Of a stretch of DNA of 64,000 bases, positions 13,826 through 41,236 are shown piece by piece. The stretch covers positions 96,038 through 160,037 of the forward strand of contig JAFIHA010000056.1 in the NCBI GenBank assembly GCA_017848965.1, read 5' to 3'. A program made the translations under genes and the position numbers. The stretch comes from Dechloromonas aromatica (nom. nud.). Its GTDB lineage: Bacteria > Pseudomonadota > Gammaproteobacteria > Burkholderiales > Rhodocyclaceae. How positions within the stretch are numbered: the stretch's first letter is position 1; each line of letters begins with the position of its first letter. The notes beneath the pieces are model-generated. The model saw only the letters and a program-made list of their open reading frames with translations. It was not told the DNA's origin and searched no databases.

Positions 13826-13871
13826 AACGTTTTCCGCAGCGCCCTTGAAAAAGCCCCCGGCCGCCCCCATA

Positions 13872-14160
13872 ATCCAGAGCATGGTTGTAATTCCGGCAAT
13901 CTGGAGGCGTTCTGGACAGGGGTTCGATTCCCCTCACCTCCACCCAAGGACATTCGGGGAGTGTCCTTGCGATGGGGGTGTACTGGTTTCGACAGGGCGG
14001 ACAAAGGTGCGCAGGCAACTCGAAAGGCGACGGACGTAATCCGCGCAAATCCATAATTGCCAACGATGAGCAATTCGCTATTGCCGCCTAAAAACGGATA
14101 GCCGGGGCTGCTGAAGCCTTGTTACCAAAGACAGCCGGCGGGGACTTCGGTCCCCGTCGT
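13872..14160 (+). ncRNA. ssrA: Circularly permuted (two-piece) tmRNA gene
   Basis: The acceptor half comes first: T-stem AGGGG/CCCCT (13918-13922 and 13930-13934) around TTCGATT, then acceptor strand CACCTCC (13935-13941) and discriminator A13942. A short intervening segment forms a 7-bp hairpin (13946-13952 with 13962-13968). The coding half starts GGGGGTG at 13974, which can pair over 7 bp (one G-U) with CACCTCC. The tag frame starts with resume codon GCC at 14059 and reads ANDEQFAIAA to TAA at 14089-14091. Permuted tmRNA genes are known in Betaproteobacteria. The outer ends are approximate. Confidence 0.92.
14139..14156 (+). terminator. Strong hairpin at the 3' end of the tmRNA gene
   Basis: C-GGGGAC, TTCG tetraloop, GTCCCC-G forms a perfect 7-bp stem-loop 48 nt after the tag stop codon. 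There is no clear T-run after it, so it may be part of the mature coding piece (a terminal pseudoknot or hairpin) or a processing/termination structure. Confidence 0.45.
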
Positions 14161-14179
14161 CACGTTTACGACCGGCAAT

Positions 14180-14755
14180 TCAGCCGGCGTAATGGAAGCT
14201 GCGCGTGGCATGGACACCGACGACGCGCGCCGGATTGAGGATGCCGCTACGCTCCAGTTGCTTGATCACCCGCGACACCGTCTCGAAGCGCAGGTCGGTG
14301 ATGTCGGCGATTGCCTGCCGCGTCGGCAGCACCACCTGCCCGTCGCTTTCGACCAGCAGACGGACCAGCGCCAGGACACGATCGACCGCCTGGCCGCCGC
14401 GCAACGCCACCACCTCGGCCGCCCGCTGCTGGGCGCGGGCCAGCGTGGCGAGCAGGGAATCGCCGGCCAGCCCGGCCTCGCCCTCCGGCCAGGGGACGAT
14501 TTCGCAGTCGGTCAGGGCGCAGGCCGAGAAGGTATAGACGCCGAACAGCAGGGTTTCGCAGCCGACGATGTCGTTGGCGATGGCCAGGCTGGCGAAACGC
14601 TCGCCGCCCGCCTGCGGGCTGTCGAGACGGAGCACGCCACGGCGCAGGCGCCAGGCCACGCCTTCATCACCGGCGCGGTAGAGGCTGACGCCGCAGTCGA
14701 GACGACGCGGTCCGGCAGTCGCCGGGGTCTTGCGATCGATCCTGAACAAGCCCAT
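14180..14755 (-). CDS. Crp/Fnr-family transcription regulator
   Basis: 191 residues from the ATG at 14755, chosen for its near-perfect Shine-Dalgarno (GGAGGAG, 6-nt spacing). The frame is open to a TTG at 14779. The N-terminal half fits a reduced cyclic-nucleotide-binding-type sensor domain. The C-terminal helix-turn-helix LPTRQAIADITDLRFETVSR is typical of the family. The N-terminal cysteine cluster of FNR is absent, so it is unlikely to bind an Fe-S cluster. Its neighbour on the same strand is a copper-receptor-like gene with a possible FNR-type box in its promoter. Regulation of that gene is an inference. Confidence 0.85.
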   Translation of the reverse strand: MGLFRIDRKTPATAGPRRLDCGVSLYRAGDEGVAWRLRRGVLRLDSPQAGGERFASLAIANDIVGCETLLFGVYTFSACALTDCEIVPWPEGEAGLAGDSLLATLARAQQRAAEVVALRGGQAVDRVLALVRLLVESDGQVVLPTRQAIADITDLRFETVSRVIKQLERSGILNPARVVGVHATRSFHYAG

Positions 14756-32683: not shown

Positions 32684-33409
32684 ATGGCAGGTCACTCGAA
32701 GTGGGCAAACATCCAGCACCGCAAGGGCCGTCAGGACGAGAAGCGCGGCGCGACTTTCTCCAAGATTGCCAAGGAAATCACCGTCGCCGCCAAGATGGGC
32801 GGGGGTGATCCGAGCTTCAACCCGCGCCTGCGCGTCGCGGTCGACAAGGCCAAGGGCGTCAACATGCCCAAGGACAAGATCGACACGGCGATCAAAAAGG
32901 GCACCGGCGAGCTGGAAGGCGTCGAATACGTCGAGATCCGCTATGAAGGCTACGGCATCGGCGGCGCGGCGATCATGGTCGACTGCCTGACCGACAACAA
33001 GACCCGCACGGTGGCCGAAGTCCGCCACGCCTTCAACAAGTACGGCGGCAACATGGGCACCGACGGCTGCGTGGCCTTCCAGTTCAAGCACTGCGGCCAG
33101 CTGATCTTCGCTCCCGGTACCGATGAGGCGGCGCTGATGGACGCCGCCATCGAAGCCGGCGCCGACGACGTGGCGACCAACGACGACGGTTCGATCGAGG
33201 TGCTGACCGCGCCGACCGAGCTCATCGCCGTCAAGGACGCACTGGAAGCGGCCGGTTTCACGCCCGAGTTCTCGGAAGTGACGATGAAGCCGGAAGGCGA
33301 GAACGTCTTTGTCGGCGACGACGCGGTAAAGATGCAGAAGCTGCTCGACGCGCTGGAAGGCCTGGACGACGTCCAGGAAATCTACACCACGGCGGTCATC
33401 GAGGAGTGA
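32684..33409 (+). CDS. yebC: YebC/PmpR-family protein
   Basis: 241 residues starting [20 protein letters not shown], diagnostic of the family, with [15 protein letters not shown] in the middle domain. Homologues act as transcriptional regulators or, per recent work on YebC family members, help translate proline-rich stretches. It normally precedes ruvC directly. Here a 6.9-kb defence operon and a transporter separate them. Confidence 0.96.
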
Positions 33410-33439: not shown

Positions 33440-34771
33440 ATGCTTTTCCGGATATCTGATGTGACTACCAATAGCAACGAATCGGCAACCCATGCGCGTC
33501 TTCGCGACGAATACCTGCGGGACGATCGCCCATGGGTAGTTGCCTATTCCGGAGGCAAAGATTCCACTGCTTTGTTGCAACAGGTCTACAAGCTGGTTCT
33601 TGAGCTAGGGTCGCGGGCCGGTAAACCGATTCACATCATCGCCTCCGACACCAAGGTAGAGGCGCCTATCGTTGAGGATTATCTGGCGGCATCCTTGAGT
33701 GCCATTGAACTTCATGCCAGAGAACACGCACCCAGTATCTCCGTGCATCACGTCCAACCCGAGCCCGATCAGACTTTCTGGACCAATCTGATTGGCAGAG
33801 GATATCCGCCCCCAACCCGCTCGTTCCGCTGGTGCACAACCAAAATCAAGATTCGCCCTGCCAGGCGGATCATTGAAGACATCGCCAAACGTTATGGCAG
33901 CGTCCTTCTGTTGCTCGGAACACGCAGTGCTGAAAGCTCCAGCCGCTCCCAGCGCATGGAAGCAAGAGAAACCAATGACCGTGGGTTGAATCCGCATCAC
34001 GAGATTCCCAACGCACTGGTGTTTACGCCCATCGCAGAGTGGTCCAACGACGAAGTCTGGGACTATCTTTTCCGCAACAACCCAGCCCCCTGGGGCACGC
34101 GGCACGACGACATGCTGGAGTTGTACCGTCAAGCCAACGGCGGTGAATGCCCTGTCGTGCTGGATCTCAATACCCCTTCCTGTGGTGGCAGCCGGTTCGG
34201 CTGCTGGACATGTACCGTTGTGCGTCAAGACCGCTCTATGCAGGGATTCATTGCCACAGGCGACGAGTGGATGCGCCCCCTGGCTGAGTTCCGTGACACG
34301 CTGAAAGTCTGGCGGGAACGACCGGAAATGCGGGAAAGCAAGCGTCGCTCCGGTGAAATTGGTCCGGGCCCGTTTACCCTGGCGGCTCGCCAACAGATTC
34401 TGGAAGCACTTTTTCAGGTTGAAAGTGAAGTTCGCCGCAAGCTGATTGACGATGAAGAATTGCAATGCATTCAGTATCATTGGCAACGCGAAGGAGACGC
34501 CACGCAATCGGCACTTCGCCTAGCCAAGCGTTACGGACGCATCGTCTCCGAAGGGGGGCAATTCAGCATGGACAATCTGAACCGGGAACTCATCGCCGAA
34601 CTGGCTTCGGAATACGAGATCCAGGAGGCCTGGATCGAGGAGTTGCTGTATTTGGTCGATCAGAAATATCCGACTCTGGCACAACGTGGTGCTCGTCCTG
34701 CGCTCAATGAGGACGTGCGTTTTGTAGTCGAAAAAGCTGTCCAGCAGGAAGACATCGCCGCTGCTCCATGA
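33440..34771 (+). CDS. dndC: DNA phosphorothioation sulfurtransferase DndC
   Basis: 443 residues of the PAPS-reductase/ATP-pyrophosphatase fold. The PP-loop SGGKDS is at residues 37-42, FRWCTTKIKI at 129-138, and the cysteine cluster C237, C248, C255, C258 (PSCGGSRFGCWTCTVV) matches the Fe-S ligands of DndC. DndC activates DNA and transfers sulfur into the backbone. The initiator has no clear Shine-Dalgarno; a GTG 7 codons later is an alternative. Its stop overlaps dndD by 4 nt. The cysteine desulfurase (DndA) is not in the operon, so a housekeeping IscS is the likely sulfur donor. DNA is AT-richer than yebC. Confidence 0.93.
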   Translation: MLFRISDVTTNSNESATHARLRDEYLRDDRPWVVAYSGGKDSTALLQQVYKLVLELGSRAGKPIHIIASDTKVEAPIVEDYLAASLSAIELHAREHAPSISVHHVQPEPDQTFWTNLIGRGYPPPTRSFRWCTTKIKIRPARRIIEDIAKRYGSVLLLLGTRSAESSSRSQRMEARETNDRGLNPHHEIPNALVFTPIAEWSNDEVWDYLFRNNPAPWGTRHDDMLELYRQANGGECPVVLDLNTPSCGGSRFGCWTCTVVRQDRSMQGFIATGDEWMRPLAEFRDTLKVWRERPEMRESKRRSGEIGPGPFTLAARQQILEALFQVESEVRRKLIDDEELQCIQYHWQREGDATQSALRLAKRYGRIVSEGGQFSMDNLNRELIAELASEYEIQEAWIEELLYLVDQKYPTLAQRGARPALNEDVRFVVEKAVQQEDIAAAP

Positions 34772-36807
34772 TCTTTGAATCGATTACGCTGGAGAACCTG
34801 TTCTCCTATTGCGGTGCTCATACCTTCGATTTGGCAGGGACAAGCGAGGGGCGGAATATCGTTCTGATTTCCGGGCGCAATGGCTTTGGCAAGACCAGTT
34901 TCCTGAACGCCCTCAAACTCCTGTTCGGCGGTGTCACCGAAAATCTGCGGCGTGCGGTGCAGCGCGAGCGTACTCCCTCCGACAAGCAGTATGTCATCGG
35001 GGCCGGCGAGGACTGGTGGGGCTTGCTCAATCGCCGTGCCCGACAAAACCGGCAGAAGCACTGCGCGGTTCGCGCGGTATGGCGGGAAGACGCCGGTCGT
35101 GTCCAGGTCGAGCGCGTCTGGGAAATCGGGGCAAACAGCTACGAAACCCGGCTACGCATCGAGGCTGACTTTCTCGAACAGCCGCTTGAAGACACTGCTG
35201 CCCAGGAATTTCTCGATTTCCGCCTGCCCGCCGAGTTCATCAAGTTTTTCATTTTTGACGGCGAACAAATCCAGGAAATCGCCGAGGCCAATCGCGACGA
35301 GCAAGTCCGGCAGATCGAGGCCTTGCTCAACATCGGCAAGCTCGGCCTTCTGCGTGAAGCGCTCAAGGCGGCCAACCAGCACTGGCAAGAAGCGGCCATG
35401 GACACCCGCCGCGCCGCCGACCTGGAAGATCTCAAGGCGCGCCTGGCCAAAACCCAGGCCGACCAGGCAGCGACCGCGCTGGCACTGCAACTGGCAGAAG
35501 AAGAACTCGGCTTGCTTGAGAACGAGATTTCCGTCCTCAAGCGCCGCCAGGAAGGACGCCGAGCCTCGGTCAACCAATTGTCCGAAGCGCTCCTCAAGGA
35601 GCGGATTACGCAGGCTGAAAACGAACATACCTCCTTGTCCGCCAAGCTGGCTGACGCCCTGCCGCGCATCGCGCCTCTCTTGTTGTCTGCAGAACTGGCC
35701 GATAAAGGCATGCAACTGCTCGATAGGCAGCTAAAACAGAGCAATGGTCCAGCCCCCCTGCTGCGGAGATTGGCAGAAGTTTTGCCCGGCCAGGTTTTTG
35801 ACACGCCTCCCTTGCCACCCACACTACCCTTGCAGGCGAGCCAGGACAGCTTTTACCGCAATCGACTGCGCAAACTTCTGGAGGCCGAAGTGGGCGATGA
35901 TCTGCCACCCCGCTCCCAGATTGATCGCCCAAAAGTAGAAAAGGCCAAATCTGTCCTGCAGCGTTATGCCTACAACGACGACGCTCGTCGTCATTTCGCA
36001 GAAATGCTTTCGCGCCTTTGGACATTGGAAAGCCAGCGCAAGAAGCTGGAGCAGGAACGGCGCGATGCCACCAGTGAAAGTCAAGCAGAAAGGGAAGCCT
36101 ACGCCAAGGCAGAGGCCGAACTTGAAGCGTTGGGAAACAAACTGCTGGACCTCAAACTGCTAATCAAGGAACGACGCAACGAAAGTGAAAGGTTGTCCAA
36201 GCTGGCCCAGGATCAGACTGTGCAGATCGATCAACAACGACACTCGGTTGCGCTTTCGGAGCAGGCTCGTCAGCGATTGCAGGTTTCCAACAGACTCAGC
36301 CGTTTTCTTGATGCGTACAAGCAACGACTTAAAGAGAGCAGCCGCAAAGAACTAGAAGACGCTTTAAATCTTCGCTATTCGCAGTTAATGACGTCCAATA
36401 CTTTGGTAAGGCGCATCGCAGTCGACGAATTCTTTGCCTTACATTATTTGAATCTCGAAGGCGAAACTGTTGGCATGGGAAATCTGTCTGCTGGCACTAA
36501 ACAAATCGCTGCCACCGCACTACTTTGGGCACTAAAGGACTGCTCTGGGAAACAGCTTCCGGTAATTGTAGATACGCCTTTGGCGAGAATCGACCGGGGC
36601 AATCAGGAACGCTTGCTGACAGCTTACTACCCCCACGCCAGCCAGCAAGTCATCGTTCTACCCACCGATTCCGAACTTGACGAGGAAAAATATCGTCTGA
36701 TCCAGCCTCACGTATATCGTGAGTTTGTATTGCATAACCCGAGCGGCAGCGAAACAGAAATCCTCCATCAACCGATGTATCCGGCCCGAAAGGTACGCCA
36801 TGGCTGA
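34768..36807 (+). CDS. dndD: DNA sulfur modification ATPase DndD (SMC/Rad50-like)
   Basis: 679 residues. Walker A GRNGFGKTS is at 36-44; long coiled-coil arms run from about 195 to 510; the ABC signature LSAGTKQIAA starts at about 573; Walker B is PVIVDTPLARID at about 597-608. This is the domain order of DndD, the ATPase partner of DndC. It overlaps dndC by 4 nt and the next gene by 8 nt. The coiled-coil section may hold a zinc-hook-like apex, but no CxxC was noticed. Confidence 0.92.
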   Translation: MIFESITLENLFSYCGAHTFDLAGTSEGRNIVLISGRNGFGKTSFLNALKLLFGGVTENLRRAVQRERTPSDKQYVIGAGEDWWGLLNRRARQNRQKHCAVRAVWREDAGRVQVERVWEIGANSYETRLRIEADFLEQPLEDTAAQEFLDFRLPAEFIKFFIFDGEQIQEIAEANRDEQVRQIEALLNIGKLGLLREALKAANQHWQEAAMDTRRAADLEDLKARLAKTQADQAATALALQLAEEELGLLENEISVLKRRQEGRRASVNQLSEALLKERITQAENEHTSLSAKLADALPRIAPLLLSAELADKGMQLLDRQLKQSNGPAPLLRRLAEVLPGQVFDTPPLPPTLPLQASQDSFYRNRLRKLLEAEVGDDLPPRSQIDRPKVEKAKSVLQRYAYNDDARRHFAEMLSRLWTLESQRKKLEQERRDATSESQAEREAYAKAEAELEALGNKLLDLKLLIKERRNESERLSKLAQDQTVQIDQQRHSVALSEQARQRLQVSNRLSRFLDAYKQRLKESSRKELEDALNLRYSQLMTSNTLVRRIAVDEFFALHYLNLEGETVGMGNLSAGTKQIAATALLWALKDCSGKQLPVIVDTPLARIDRGNQERLLTAYYPHASQQVIVLPTDSELDEEKYRLIQPHVYREFVLHNPSGSETEILHQPMYPARKVRHG

Positions 36808-38284
36808 TATTGCCATAAGTGCCCAGGATGAAACGCTGGTTCGGGAAATCCTCAAACATGGCCTGAAACGCAACGTTCCCAAGCTGAACGTGTTGCGCTT
36901 GGCATTGGCCCGCTCTTTACGCCTGCCGACTCCGCCCGACGAAGCCCTGGATTATGAAGAGAGCCCGCATCGCTACGATCTGGAACAGGTTGCCGGCAAA
37001 GGCCTGAGCGATGACGAACAAGGACCGCGCGATTTCAATGACGCTTACAAAGCGCTCCTCTCGGCTTATCACGATACGGATTTGTTTGCTGATGAAGACC
37101 GTTATGTGTTGTTGCTGCAGCGTCATATCCGCCGTGGGCTGCGCGAATTCCGGACCAGTTGGCGGCAGAACCATGACTTCCATGCCTATCTCTACCAGGA
37201 GTTTTTCGGCGGCACAGCCATGGTCACGCGGGAAGATCGTCGTGACGACCTGGCTCGGGCATTGACCGAAATCGGTGTCAGTGCGGAAATCCGTGAGCGG
37301 GTTGATGGTCCTCGTTTGTCCCGCTACCGCTTGTATCTTTCCGACCTGAGCGATGCAGACCGGGTTCGCCGAGGCCTGGATCGCCTCGCCATCGCACTGA
37401 ATTTGCAGCGCCAAGGCGTCTTCCTTTCGCCAGGCGATGAGGCCAGAGTCATATGCCTGGATCTGCCACGCGCCCGCGAATCGTGGCAGCTATTGCCCGG
37501 CACCTCTTTACGCGAATGGGTGCGGGCCGAATGCAGCGATCCCTTGCCCGTGTGGCCGGGGGCTGACATTCAGGGCCAGCCATTTCGCTTTGATCTGGCG
37601 GCCGCGCCCCATCTGCTGGTCGCAGGCACCACGGGGAGCGGAAAAAGCGTCTGTTTGCACGCCATCATCCTTTCACTGCTTTGGCGACAAACTGCGGCCA
37701 ACCTTCGGCTGTTGCTGATTGATCCCAAACAGGTCGAGTTCTCTGCCTATCGCGGCATTCCCCATTTGGCGGGCAAAGGACCAATTTTTGAACCGGCCGA
37801 GGCAGCAGTTGAACTGAAAGCGCTGGTGGCAGAAATGGAACTACGCCATCAACGTTTTCAGGTCTTGGGGGTCGCCAATCTTGCTGAGGCCCAGGCAAAG
37901 GGAGAAGAATTGCCGCGCATCGTGGTGATGGTGGAGGAACTGGCAGACTTGATCCGGCAGCATCCTGCAGTCGAAGAATCGCTCATCCGGCTTGCCCAAA
38001 AAGCACGCTCGGCCGGCATCCATCTGGTTCTGGCTACACAACGTCCGGACGCCGAGACTTTTTCCGGCCTGTTGCGTTCCAACATCCCGGCTCGTATCGC
38101 GCTGGCTGTTCAGAAAGGAAGCGAATCCCGCATCATTCTTGACGATGAGGGTGCCGAAAAGTTACTTGGCCAAGGGGATATGCTGATTAAGCCGGGAACC
38201 GGTCCCGATACTTTCCGGGTTCACGGCGTTCGTATCAGCCGTGATGACATTTCCGCCTGCGTTCGTGCCTGCAAAGGAGGCTGA
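36800..38284 (+). CDS. DndE-like domain fused to an FtsK/SpoIIIE-type DNA translocase
   Basis: 494 residues from the ATG at 36800 (AAAGG upstream); an open extension to 36719 lies inside dndD. Residues about 7-135 look DndE-like: LKRNVPKLNVLRLALARSLR, then RHIRRGLREFRTSWRQNHDF. The motor domain follows: Walker A GTTGSGKS 276-283, LLLIDPKQVEFSAYRGIPHL, Walker B-like IVVMVEELADL (E379 where FtsK has Asp), and GIHLVLATQRP to LLGQGDML. No winged-helix gamma domain is present. Known DndE is a short stand-alone nicked-DNA binder; I infer that here it targets a DNA pump to the modification complex. The DndE assignment is by pattern memory and needs a profile search. Confidence 0.82.
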   Translation: MADIAISAQDETLVREILKHGLKRNVPKLNVLRLALARSLRLPTPPDEALDYEESPHRYDLEQVAGKGLSDDEQGPRDFNDAYKALLSAYHDTDLFADEDRYVLLLQRHIRRGLREFRTSWRQNHDFHAYLYQEFFGGTAMVTREDRRDDLARALTEIGVSAEIRERVDGPRLSRYRLYLSDLSDADRVRRGLDRLAIALNLQRQGVFLSPGDEARVICLDLPRARESWQLLPGTSLREWVRAECSDPLPVWPGADIQGQPFRFDLAAAPHLLVAGTTGSGKSVCLHAIILSLLWRQTAANLRLLLIDPKQVEFSAYRGIPHLAGKGPIFEPAEAAVELKALVAEMELRHQRFQVLGVANLAEAQAKGEELPRIVVMVEELADLIRQHPAVEESLIRLAQKARSAGIHLVLATQRPDAETFSGLLRSNIPARIALAVQKGSESRIILDDEGAEKLLGQGDMLIKPGTGPDTFRVHGVRISRDDISACVRACKGG

Positions 38285-38286
38285 CA

Positions 38287-39474
38287 ATGAGCCTGCAAAC
38301 TCTCCGTATTTTGGAATTCCGCCCTGTCTGGCTAACAGTCGATGGCAATGGTCCATTCCCGGAGCGGCCTTATGGCATCGATTTTACGGATGCCAGTGGA
38401 GCGCCCTGCAACGCTTTCCTGTTCATGTCCGACAATGGCATGGGCAAGACAACCCTGCTTCAGATCATGGCCAACATGATGCGCGTCTGGGGTGAGCGAG
38501 AGCCCAAATACTGGGGAGTTGAAGGCCTTGATTCGGGGGAACTGCGTGCCCAATGGGATTTGCGCATTCGTGTTTATTGGCGAGGTGAAGAGAAAGTCAT
38601 CATCCTCTCTTTGCTCGCTGGCAACTTCAGCGATGACCTAGCTCTTCTGAAACCTTGGGGTACGGCCGAACTTGCACAGGCACAGGCAGACTCCTGGCAT
38701 GTCGCCGGATACCGGCGTCGAGCACGAGGTTTTCTGACCGAAATAGGTCGTAGCGATGAACTGTGTGCAGACCTGACTGATACGTTCAGAGAATGGAATC
38801 AGGAAGAAGCCGAAAACAGTGCTGGGGGCTTTTCTGGTACCGCGTTTGATTTGCCGACAGCGCTGTACTTCAGCGCTTATCGCGATATCCCCGCTGTAGC
38901 ATCCCACGAGCGAGCAATCGGGCGTCCTGAGCATTGGGGATATCGTACCGCCCATTTGTTTGACCCGCATTCCAATCGCTGGCGGGACTCTTTGGATAAC
39001 CTTCTCGTCTGGTTGAAATGGCTGGATCAAAACCTGCTTCCCGATCAACCCGGCCGTTTTGATCGTGCCAGGGATTTTGTCAATCGCCATGTCTTTGACG
39101 AAACACCCGACAAATTCTTAGAGGGGATTTCGGTTGAGACCCTGGCCGCCATCGTACGTAATGGAGATGCTCGTCACCGACTGGACAGATTGAGTAGCGG
39201 CGAAAAGAATCTGGTTCATCTCTTTTTGCGTATCGGCGCACATATGACGCGTCATACGCTGATATTCATTGATGAACCAGAAGTGCACTTACATCCCCGC
39301 TGGCAGTACCGCCTGATTCGCCAGCTCAAAGCTTTGCCCAAAAACGACCCCGGTATCACGGTTATTGCTGCAACGCACTCCGTAGATATGCTGAAGGCCT
39401 TTGCTTTTGAAATTCCCGAGGATGGCCTTCATAAAGGCGGGGACATCATTCAAAAGAGCAAAGAGGAGGCCTGA
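38287..39474 (+). CDS. ABC-type AAA ATPase, AriA-like (PARIS) candidate
   Basis: 395 residues. Walker A SDNGMGKTT is at 48-56, signature LSSGEK at 302-307, Walker B LIFIDEPEVHLHP from 325, and the H-loop ATHSVDML follows. This is the AAA_15/AAA_21 type found in OLD, RecF and the AriA subunit of PARIS. The coiled-coil insertion is short, unlike DndD. It begins 2 nt after the FtsK-fusion gene and is followed after 3 nt by a TOPRIM-like gene, the AriA-AriB arrangement. In PARIS the ATPase scaffolds and holds the nuclease until triggered. The role here is inferred. Confidence 0.8.
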   Translation: MSLQTLRILEFRPVWLTVDGNGPFPERPYGIDFTDASGAPCNAFLFMSDNGMGKTTLLQIMANMMRVWGEREPKYWGVEGLDSGELRAQWDLRIRVYWRGEEKVIILSLLAGNFSDDLALLKPWGTAELAQAQADSWHVAGYRRRARGFLTEIGRSDELCADLTDTFREWNQEEAENSAGGFSGTAFDLPTALYFSAYRDIPAVASHERAIGRPEHWGYRTAHLFDPHSNRWRDSLDNLLVWLKWLDQNLLPDQPGRFDRARDFVNRHVFDETPDKFLEGISVETLAAIVRNGDARHRLDRLSSGEKNLVHLFLRIGAHMTRHTLIFIDEPEVHLHPRWQYRLIRQLKALPKNDPGITVIAATHSVDMLKAFAFEIPEDGLHKGGDIIQKSKEEA

Positions 39475-39477
39475 CCC

Positions 39478-40332
39478 ATGGCGTCTTTCAAAGGAAAGCC
39501 GAATTCTGAACGTGTTGAGTATGGGTATTTCAGGAAGGTAGTAGTTTTTCTGGAGTCCGAAGAAGATCGCCTGATCATTGGCGACCGCTGGTTTTTCGAG
39601 GATGGCGAATTTGACTTCAAACCCGCGGACGAAGGCTGTGGGGGAGGATCTTCGCGCGTAACGGCCCTTGTTGCTGAGGCCAGAACCAATCATTTTTCTG
39701 CGTTTGGGATTGTTGACCGCGATGCCCTTGCAGTCGAACCCCATTGGTCCATCTGGTGGGAAATGGATGACGGCAATTTTCATGCCTCGCGCCCGCTCGG
39801 AGAATATATTCGCGTACTGCCTCGTTGGGAAATAGAGAACTATCTTCTTGACCCCGAGGTAGTTGAAGCCGTGGTTGCCAATCGCGAGGGAAGATCTGTT
39901 CGCAGAGGAGAAGATGCGCTGCAAACAATCTATCGAGATATAGATTCAGTCGTCAACATATCTGCAGCGGTCATTGCCGGACGAAAACATGGTATACGCG
40001 TTGATGATGAACTGAACAAAATCCCCGCTGATGCTTTACCTCGACAAATTGAAAACCGACTGGGTGAAGCTGCTCCTTGCGTTTCCGAGCTTGCTACGCG
40101 CATTCGAGAGTTTGGAGCTCCATTACCGGAAGGAAGTGCAGCGCATTGGGAACGCATATCGCGACTACTGGATGGGAAGCGTTTCCTCAAACGACTTGAC
40201 CTATGCGGCAAAAACTTGGGCGCAAAGGAGGACAGACGCCTCGAATTGGCTGATCAAGCGCGTAATAGAGGGAAATTCATTCAGGAGATAAAAGCCTTTC
40301 TTGATGAATTCAAGAAAGAAGCTTTCGTGTAA
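39478..40332 (+). CDS. TOPRIM/DUF4435-like nuclease candidate, AriB-like (PARIS)
   Basis: 284 residues. A TOPRIM-like metal site can be read: E26 in VVVFLESEED and D80/D82 in FGIVDRDAL. The DUF4435-type segment LPRWEIENYLLDPEVVE follows at about 114-130. The C-terminal half is helical and charged. In PARIS, AriB is the TOPRIM nuclease released by AriA on phage attack. It is the last gene of the operon and 21 nt before the terminator. Assignment to DUF4435 is by motif reading, not search. Confidence 0.75.
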   Translation: MASFKGKPNSERVEYGYFRKVVVFLESEEDRLIIGDRWFFEDGEFDFKPADEGCGGGSSRVTALVAEARTNHFSAFGIVDRDALAVEPHWSIWWEMDDGNFHASRPLGEYIRVLPRWEIENYLLDPEVVEAVVANREGRSVRRGEDALQTIYRDIDSVVNISAAVIAGRKHGIRVDDELNKIPADALPRQIENRLGEAAPCVSELATRIREFGAPLPEGSAAHWERISRLLDGKRFLKRLDLCGKNLGAKEDRRLELADQARNRGKFIQEIKAFLDEFKKEAFV

Positions 40333-40353
40333 TGGTTATTTTGGCGCCCCCTA

Positions 40354-40376
40354 GGCGGCGATACGCCGCCTTTCTT
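40354..40376 (+). terminator. Rho-independent terminator of the dnd-type operon
   Basis: GGCGGCG (40354-40360), ATA loop, CGCCGCC (40364-40370), then TTTCTTATTT. Perfect 7-bp stem plus T-rich tail, 21 nt after the last island gene and 6 nt before the transporter start. It cleanly closes the island. Confidence 0.85.
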
Positions 40377-40381
40377 ATTTG

Positions 40382-41236
40382 ATGCAACGCGCCTATCCCC
40401 TCCTCTTCGTCTTCCTGTGGAGCACCGGTTTCATCGGTGCCAAGTTCGGCCTGCCGCATGCCGAACCGCTGTCTTTCCTGCTCACCCGCTACTGCCTGGT
40501 CGTCGCGCTGATGCTGCCGGTGGCGCTGGCGACGCGCGCGCCGTGGCCGCGCGATCCGCAACAGTGGCTGCACATCGCGGTCTCCGGCTTGCTGGTCCAC
40601 GCGCTTTACCTGGGCGGCGTCTTCGTCGCCATCGGCCACGGCCTGCCGGCCGGGATCACCGCGCTGGTGGTCGGCATGCAGCCGCTGCTCACCGCCTGCA
40701 GCGCCGGCTGGCTGCTCGGCGAAAAGGTCAGCGGCCGCCAGTGGGGCGGCCTGGCGATGGGCTTTGTCGGTGTCGCGCTGGTCGTGTCCGGCAAGCTCGG
40801 CGACGGCGCGCTCGGACCGATGCTGCTGCCGGCGCTGGTCGCGCTGCTGGCGATCACCGCCGGCACGCTGTACCAGAAACGTTTCTGCGCCCGTTTCGAC
40901 CTGCGTACCGGCGCGCTGATCCAGTTCGTGCCGAGCGCCATCGTCACCGGTATCGCCGTCGCACTGTTCGAGGATTACCGCATCGACTGGAGCGGCGAAT
41001 TCCTGTTCGCGCTCGGCTGGCTGGTGCTGGTTTTGTCGCTCGGTGCGATCAGCCTGCTCAACCTCCTGATCCGCAAGGGCAGCGCGGTCAATGTCGCCAG
41101 CCTCTTCTACCTGACGCCGCCGACGACGGCGCTGATCGCCTGGGCGGTCTTCGGCGAGACGCTGACGCCGGTAGCCGTGCTCGGCATGGCGGTGGCGGTC
41201 GGCGGCGTATATTTGGTGGCGAGGCCGGCGAAGTGA
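40382..41236 (+). CDS. EamA/DMT-family transporter
   Basis: 284 residues from the ATG at 40382; a TTG directly before is the only extension. Ten membrane helices are predicted in two EamA units (RAYPLLFVFLWSTGFIGAKF; NVASLFYLTPPTTALIAWAV). Composition returns to the GC-rich chromosomal type here. Its stop overlaps a GTG that begins the duplicated ruvC fragment (GTGA). The substrate is unknown. Confidence 0.9.
   Translation: MQRAYPLLFVFLWSTGFIGAKFGLPHAEPLSFLLTRYCLVVALMLPVALATRAPWPRDPQQWLHIAVSGLLVHALYLGGVFVAIGHGLPAGITALVVGMQPLLTACSAGWLLGEKVSGRQWGGLAMGFVGVALVVSGKLGDGALGPMLLPALVALLAITAGTLYQKRFCARFDLRTGALIQFVPSAIVTGIAVALFEDYRIDWSGEFLFALGWLVLVLSLGAISLLNLLIRKGSAVNVASLFYLTPPTTALIAWAVFGETLTPVAVLGMAVAVGGVYLVARPAK

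Follow-up and report, generated by a model that had tools for sequence, protein, structure and literature searches.

Among the described phosphorothioate (PT)-linked systems, PbeABCD was re-annotated in 2024, and its PbeA is an HKD nuclease-SF2 helicase (PMC10853773). In a subset of Dnd systems ('clade-3'), DndE carries fused HerA/FtsK domains and neighbours an ABC ATPase related to DndD; DNA interception by HerA/FtsK domains was proposed, and many DndD-DndE cores occur without PT genes (PMC10853773). Further, PT systems often lack DndFGH, their supposed restriction partner, and the same source leaves open which nucleases then act. DndI, described in 2024, unites in one polypeptide an N-terminal ATPase, which carries a PT-sensing patch, and an HNH nuclease domain, and it harms cells that lack PT (PMC11662687). 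In PARIS, AriA detects trigger proteins of the phage, upon which AriB cleaves host tRNAs (PMC12409363). TOPRIM-linked OLD ATPases, PARIS included, are back-up effectors of BREX (PMC12839542, 2026). Here we analysed a five-gene operon in a 64,000-nucleotide (nt) stretch of Dechloromonas aromatica contig JAFIHA010000056.1 (hereafter the window, to whose positions the coordinates of the operon refer). The operon seems to represent a variant, not described so far, of the sulfur-based systems known to act against viruses, with Dnd-type genes followed by an ATPase-TOPRIM pair.

Five open reading frames (ORFs) were confirmed at 33440..40332 on the + strand, in the order gene 1 to gene 5, with the following domains:

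33440..34771, + strand: gene 1, DndC-type PAPS-reductase-like sulfurtransferase, 443 amino acids (aa)
34571..34747, + strand: SP-like C-terminal domain of gene 1 (SP, the stand-alone small protein associated with Dnd)
34768..36807, + strand: gene 2, DndD/PbeC-type coiled-coil ABC ATPase, 679 aa, without a CxC zinc hook
36800..38284, + strand: gene 3, DndE fused to an FtsK/HerA motor, 494 aa
36800..37249 (approximate limits), + strand: DndE-like N-terminal part of gene 3, PF08870
37535..38047, + strand: FtsK/SpoIIIE ATPase domain of gene 3, PF01580
38287..39474, + strand: gene 4, ABC/OLD-type ATPase, 395 aa
39478..40332, + strand: gene 5, DUF4435/TOPRIM-like protein, 284 aa

All five frames were intact and the expected catalytic motifs were present in all five proteins. 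With ATG 36800 most plausibly taken as the start of gene 3, genes 1 and 2 overlap by 4 nt and genes 2 and 3 by 8 nt, and gaps of 2 nt and 3 nt separate genes 3/4 and 4/5. The tight coupling noted in an earlier, sequence-only reading of this DNA was thus confirmed, and family calls bore out its gene content of dndC, dndD, DndE-like-FtsK, AAA ATPase and TOPRIM/DUF4435.

To describe how the order recurs, we used 38 relative loci anchored on gene 4, of which two lie on plasmids, 10 were taken from a set of 398 proteobacterial genomes and 26 belong to named genomes. From the 80 loci of the named-genome search, 54 with only a partial ATPase match (L081-L134; E of at least 5e-17) were left out, as were six of the 16 other genomes found in the 398-genome gene 4 search (E of at least 4.5e-14). 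The types of locus (L), counted by hand, were as follows:

Five genes in the window order, full-length: 14/38 (L045, L049, L050, L054, L057, L061-L067, L073, L076)
Window order with broken genes: 3/38 (L047, L053, L055)
Genes 2-5, the contig starting inside gene 2: 2/38 (L051, L052)
Alphaproteobacterial type, dndACDE-SP-genes 2-5: 4/38 (L004, L005 broken, L079, L080)
SP-genes 2-5 without dndC: 1/38 (L046)
SP-gene 2-4-5-DndE, the contig starting at SP: 1/38 (L056)
Genes 4-5 without genes 2-3: 4/38 (L048, L059, L060, L077)
Gene 4, gene 5 not seen: 9/38 (L058, L068-L072, L074, L075, L078 at a contig end)

The count of 14 includes L063, in which a stop lies between DndC and SP, and L061 and L064, in which SP is a gene of its own. 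Genes 4-5 held a fixed position behind DndE-FtsK in 24 of the 38 loci. Hosts of the five-gene type include Chromatiaceae, Zoogloea, Marinobacter, Desulfobacteraceae and Desulfobulbaceae; those of the alphaproteobacterial type are Rhizobium, Asticcacaulis and Mesorhizobium, and in the three unbroken loci SP and genes 2-5 come after a dndACDE set that is complete. The 38 loci are not all independent, because six of the nine gene-4-only loci are mutually 86-94% identical; L062/L063 and L067/L073 are near relatives too. A chance arrangement or an assembly artefact was rejected, since the gene order recurs in unrelated genomes.

The same association was seen in gene content. Among the 398 genomes, with that of the window excluded, 10 had strong gene 4 matches, and these 10 also matched gene 5; gene 3 was likewise seen in 10, nine of them carriers of genes 4-5. 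The exceptions were genome (G) G303, which has genes 4-5 only, and G425, which has genes 1-3 only. The two halves that the sequence-only reading had joined therefore do co-occur elsewhere, with gene 3 in 9/10 carriers of genes 4-5. DndC scored over its cut-off in 13/398 genomes; seven of these 13, including the window's, carry genes 1-3 of this type, and six of the seven carry genes 4-5 as well. This type may therefore be a common PT arrangement in Proteobacteria, an estimate from a small sample in which several carriers share a family. For the five proteins, pairwise distances were correlated at 0.70-0.86 over 14 loci without alphaproteobacteria and at 0.80-0.90 over 17 loci with them. Every protein pair gave a Mantel result of 0 of 2000 in both sets. 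These correlations indicate joint travel rather than interaction, because shared vertical descent raises them too. As the order recurs in distant bacteria and the five proteins diverge in parallel, we consider the operon to be more than a chance grouping.

Gene 1 passed the NCBI equivalog model for DndC (TIGR03183; 367.6 bits, cut-off 290.4). It has the PP-loop SGGKDS at residues 37-42, and its cysteines C132, C248, C255 and C258, each conserved in 93% or more of 17 sequences with that of the window among them, may bind a [4Fe-4S] cluster. The alignment used here, from which fragments under length thresholds were excluded, had 17, 23, 24, 35 and 30 rows for genes 1 to 5, window included. The SP-like end matched PF20306 (Sp-DndD) under the Pfam cut-off (E 0.0093), and a profile of four stand-alone SPs matched it at 1.5e-4 in the first round, from which the window sequence was left out. 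SP is an individual gene before gene 2 in L004, L005, L079, L080, L056, L061 and L064. In L063 (5094-6422, Thiocystis violacea), an in-frame stop parts the catalytic part of DndC from SP; in the L062 strain the two are fused. The DndC-SP fusion was rejected as a hallmark, since the SP-like end is not unique to the system: weaker SP-like C-termini were seen in 3/11 DndC-like proteins outside the module. There is no dndA among the five genes; of the two cysteine desulfurases that could serve such a system, DndA or IscS, IscS scored over its cut-off in the window's genome. In a DndC tree, the module label required two changes and the alphaproteobacterial DndCs were separate from those of the window type (the label 'canon' covered all 11 non-module rows, five of them under the DndC cut-off). 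We claim no origin from this tree because some branches are long and support is uneven.

Gene 2 passed the DndD model (TIGR03185; 260.9 bits, cut-off 245.85); in PADLOC, PbeC ranked first with 389.9 bits, over DndD with 277.4. No CxC or CxxC was found in the coil region of any of 23 sequences (window included), and a hook-based assignment of gene 2 to the CxC-type ATPases was rejected. In Pfam, gene 3 matched FtsK_SpoIIIE (E 5e-44) and, under the cut-off, DndE (E 8e-4); its motifs are Walker A GTTGSGKS at 276-283 and ATQRP at 412-416. In L056 (327-5083, Thiomargarita), SP, gene 2, gene 4 and gene 5 are followed by a stand-alone DndE of 146 aa without an FtsK domain, which scored over the Pfam cut-off at 25.2 bits. 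Against plasmids, gene 3 matched 620 records, two of which covered 80% of the query; the 30 listed were mostly FtsK.

Gene 4 matched Pfam AAA_21 (E 8e-17). The solved fold nearest to its predicted structure was PtuA of retrons/Septu, followed by Rad50 and AriA, those two tied; in a sequence comparison with solved structures, the scores of AriA and the retron Ec83 ATPase were alike. Gene 5, whose TOPRIM glutamate is E26, matched DUF4435 (E 0.012) and PADLOC AriB (E 1e-4), and its predicted structure was TOPRIM-like, with AriB as the nearest solved fold; its profile gave no relevant match among PDB sequences. The likeness to AriA/AriB that had been proposed therefore held for gene 5, whereas gene 4 was structurally nearer PtuA than AriA. 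Judged from these sequences and predicted models, genes 4-5 are probably an effector pair, in which a TOPRIM protein resembling AriB partners an ATPase resembling PtuA. When gene 5 was used as a single-sequence query against 274 genomes of the window's class, only the window's genome and one weak match (G032) came up; the system is thus sparse in that class. In plasmids, tblastn with gene 5 found none, and the Mesorhizobium gene 4 matched only the two known plasmid records of the alphaproteobacterial type. The gene 4 profile had no confirmed match in viral contigs, and gene 4 was not found in phage records. A distant AAA_21 + DUF4435 pair, with DUF4435 over the cut-off, lies at a contig end in L217 (44-1748, - strand) and adjoins genes for Leu/Phe- and Arg-tRNA-protein transferases.

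We tentatively read the operon as a PT-linked system of the Dnd/Pbe kind, horizontally acquired and directed against invaders, that has a new effector pair, and give this reading slightly less than an even chance. Host IscS would supply sulfur, and DndC, acting together with DndE and the coiled-coil ABC ATPase, would write PT on self DNA, or would belong to a machine that does so. The DndE-FtsK motor and the ABC ATPase would survey DNA, and unmodified or abnormal DNA would alter the state of the PtuA-like ATPase, which would hold the AriB-like TOPRIM nuclease in check and then release or activate it. The nuclease would cut nucleic acid: tRNA, in the manner of AriB, or DNA, in the manner of OLD nucleases, two options that sequence does not tell apart. 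Genes 2-5 look like a second, surveillance half, as PbeABCD is beside DndCDEA, because a complete dndACDE precedes them in alphaproteobacteria; in the window operon, which has no separate DndD and DndE, one ABC ATPase and one FtsK-fused DndE would serve both halves. A more specific form, PT-gated abortive infection in which the DndE-FtsK motor pumps along DNA and distinguishes marked from unmarked DNA and the PtuA-like ATPase frees the AriB-like nuclease onto tRNA, seems to us quite unlikely.

Several observations weigh against a PT-linked system. The strongest evidence against its PT part is G307 (L046, completeness 100), which has full ORFs for SP-genes 2-5 and in which only the SP domain of dndC is left, with no DndC match in the genome at E <= 1e-20. 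G321 points the same way: its dndC (L047, 12446-13078) has a large internal deletion, with the start and the SP-like end kept, and the DndC search found no other match in that genome; its gene 4 also carries a stop. Further, dndC is broken by a stop in L053 and by a frameshift in L055, which may be sequencing errors. Loci without an intact dndC are either decaying copies or a sign that genes 2-5 are independent of PT. In G425 (L157, 5324-6988), genes 1-3 are followed by housekeeping genes without genes 4-5. The pair can also persist alone, as genes 4-5 occur without genes 2-3 in 4/38 loci and gene 4 without gene 5 in 9/38. Family scans of the five proteins named no PT-reading domain, and the DUF4435 match of gene 5 stays under the Pfam cut-off.

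The loci with genes 4-5 and without genes 2-3 (L048, L059, L060, L077) would suit an abortive guard of the PARIS/Septu type: genes 4-5 would be complete in themselves, would sense anti-restriction proteins of phages and, carried along with a PT modification operon, would act as a back-up without reading PT. The division of labour between AriA and AriB (PMC12409363) and the recruitment of PARIS-like modules by BREX (PMC12839542) also fit such a guard. However, the frames are closely coupled, the pair keeps its place after DndE-FtsK in most loci, and gene 3 is present in all carriers of genes 4-5 but one among the 398 genomes, besides the window's; we regard this explanation as possible, though doubtful. 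G307 and G321 would suit another arrangement, in which genes 2-5 form an autonomous ABC/DndE-FtsK/ATPase/TOPRIM interceptor ('HerA/FtsK capture') with DndC as an accessory and with DNA structure or packaging, not sulfur, as the trigger; the interception proposed for HerA/FtsK domains and the DndD-DndE cores without PT genes (PMC10853773) are in line with it. Yet dndC, whole or broken, stands before gene 2, directly or past SP only, in 17/18 readable window-type loci (full-length in 14/17; the 18th is G307), and the three unbroken alphaproteobacterial loci also carry dndC. We therefore consider a dndC-independent system unlikely. That the operon is a decaying remnant without present function in this genome is very improbable: broken copies exist in some relatives (L005, L047, L053, L055) and the DndE part of gene 3 was found in 0/59 other genomes of the relatives search, but in the window all five frames and motifs are intact and starts and stops still overlap. 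The PT-linked anti-invader system thus remains the reading that we prefer. With respect to the sequence-only reading, its observation was confirmed and its interpretation, in which sulfur-marked self DNA is protected and genes 4-5 attack or abort, is partly supported.

Other features of the departing loci were as follows. The lone SP domain of L046 (12571-13805) stands before gene 2 and adjoins a gene that we take, by recognition, to be pseudouridine-synthase-like. In G425, the genes directly behind genes 1-3 encode TusA (a sulfur-relay protein), a NUDIX protein and a hydrolase; the TusA neighbour may be due to chance, and a frameshifted gene 4 was rejected, since TusA, NUDIX and other housekeeping genes occupy that place. 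L060 (3097-9997, Methylococcaceae) has a 5' part of dndC, an HNH_2 protein, a Cap4-nuclease protein and an LmuB-like ATPase, then genes 4-5. The Cap4-nuclease and LmuB-like proteins are presumably a Lamassu-type pair, and a Lamassu-like cassette appears to have taken the place of genes 2-3. In L068-L072, L074 and L075, from Nitrotoga and related betaproteobacteria, lone gene 4 homologues of ~410-440 aa were found, beside which gene 5 and Dnd genes were not seen; in L069 the neighbours are ClpB-like and Rho-like genes. It is odd that the ATPase is retained without its nuclease partner.

The surroundings of the operon in the window are listed below; the names yebC, DMT-like transporter and ruvC are our assumption, made by recognition without a family search.

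32684..33409, + strand: left flank, yebC, 241 aa, a conserved chromosomal neighbour
40353-40371, + strand: terminator-like hairpin with a T-rich tail to 40381; 8 pairs, 7 of them G-C, then TTCTTATTTG
40379..41236, + strand: right flank, membrane transporter gene (DMT-like), then ruvC

The GC content was 0.55 in the operon and 0.65-0.66 in the remainder of the window. The gene yebC was present in 33/35 genomes of the genus (window's included), that is, in 32/34 other congeners. In all 29 congener loci examined, dndC was absent after yebC (up to 1.5 kb past it); downstream lay a transporter homologue in 28/29 and ruvC in one. Further, the DndE part of gene 3 was absent from the 59 other genomes of the relatives search, which include 35 congeners: the matches listed start at profile position 142 or later, a region common to ordinary FtsK, and the gene 3 N-terminal profile, built from two sequences, also matches ordinary FtsK in relatives. 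As congener yebC loci lack dndC and relatives lack the DndE part of gene 3, the operon is an insertion and not a trait of the genus. Its horizontal acquisition, at a position vacant in the congeners examined, shares the tentative standing of the preferred reading. The yebC-transporter gap in congeners (L188-L216) ranges from ~45 bp to more than 1 kb; since its length varies, the spot may be a recurrent insertion site. The hairpin agrees with the single closing terminator that the sequence-only reading had described. The scans for such signals are weak evidence, because their counts are near or under shuffle expectation (terminator-like sites, 4 observed and 8.8 expected; promoter-like sites, 4 and 3.3). 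On the + strand before dndC, where 30 nt separate it from yebC, the promoter scan found no promoter-like site. A tmRNA gene with the tag ANDEQFAIAA lies elsewhere in the window (13853-14182).

The operon is compact, conserved, clonable and mobile and occurs in scattered proteobacteria and their kin. For PT systems without DndFGH it offers a candidate answer: an AriB-fold TOPRIM effector with a PtuA-like ATPase and a DNA-translocating DndE. PT-gated tRNA cutting, if true, would be to our knowledge the first link from a DNA-backbone mark to a shut-off of translation.

Comparison with known systems placed the operon as follows. Among the titles and abstract openings listed, supplements not covered, we found no description of an operon of DndC, DndE-FtsK, ATPase and TOPRIM. 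The sequence-only reading, which knew of no named system with this content, agrees with this, although DndE-FtsK beside a DndD-related ATPase had already been reported (PMC10853773). Its list of known PT systems was incomplete in omitting PbeABCD (PMC10853773) and DndI (PMC11662687).

In the window's genome, neither DndB (TIGR03233; weak signal in 2/14 controls) nor dnd_assoc_2 (TIGR03237; positive in G536, one of six other DndC genomes) was detected. We take TIGR03237 to be of the DndH type. The operon thus does not appear to belong to DndBCDE-DndFGH, as judged from the DndB and dnd_assoc_2 models, with the DndF and DndG models unused. Like IscS-DndBCDE-DndI and SspABCD-SspE, it would be a PT-linked defence with a nucleoside triphosphate-dependent nuclease effector other than DndFGH (PMC11662687). 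DndI, however, is one protein with an HNH domain (PMC11662687), whereas the family scan named no HNH in genes 4-5. With Septu and retrons the operon shares PtuA as the nearest solved fold of gene 4; its nuclease partner is TOPRIM-like and not the HNH protein PtuB that defines Septu. Gene 5 is an AriB-type DUF4435 TOPRIM protein as in PARIS, but the closest relative of its partner is not AriA, gene 4 being nearer PtuA in fold, and the pair is embedded in a PT operon. In contrast to the window operon, the DndE-FtsK subset of Dnd systems is described without mention of DUF4435, AriA or PARIS in the main text of PMC10853773, where the two mentions of TOPRIM concern other matters.

Pbe (DndCDEA-PbeABCD) is the closest known relative of the operon. 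The differences are that the ATPase-TOPRIM pair stands in place of PbeA, that DndE is fused to FtsK, that the CxC zinc hook is missing from gene 2 (0/23), and that most window-type loci have SP fused to DndC and a single ABC-DndE pair. PbeA was not found among the window's five genes (Pfam; PADLOC matches listed, the best 25 for genes 2 and 4), no PbeA model having been run elsewhere in the genome or on the relative loci. Both systems combine Dnd modification genes with an ABC ATPase of the second type, a cognate DndE and a small SP; in the window these are the PbeC-type ATPase of gene 2, the DndE part of gene 3 (under the Pfam cut-off) and the SP-like end of gene 1. The likeness is also seen in the Mesorhizobium locus, where dndACDE is followed by SP-ABC-DndE.
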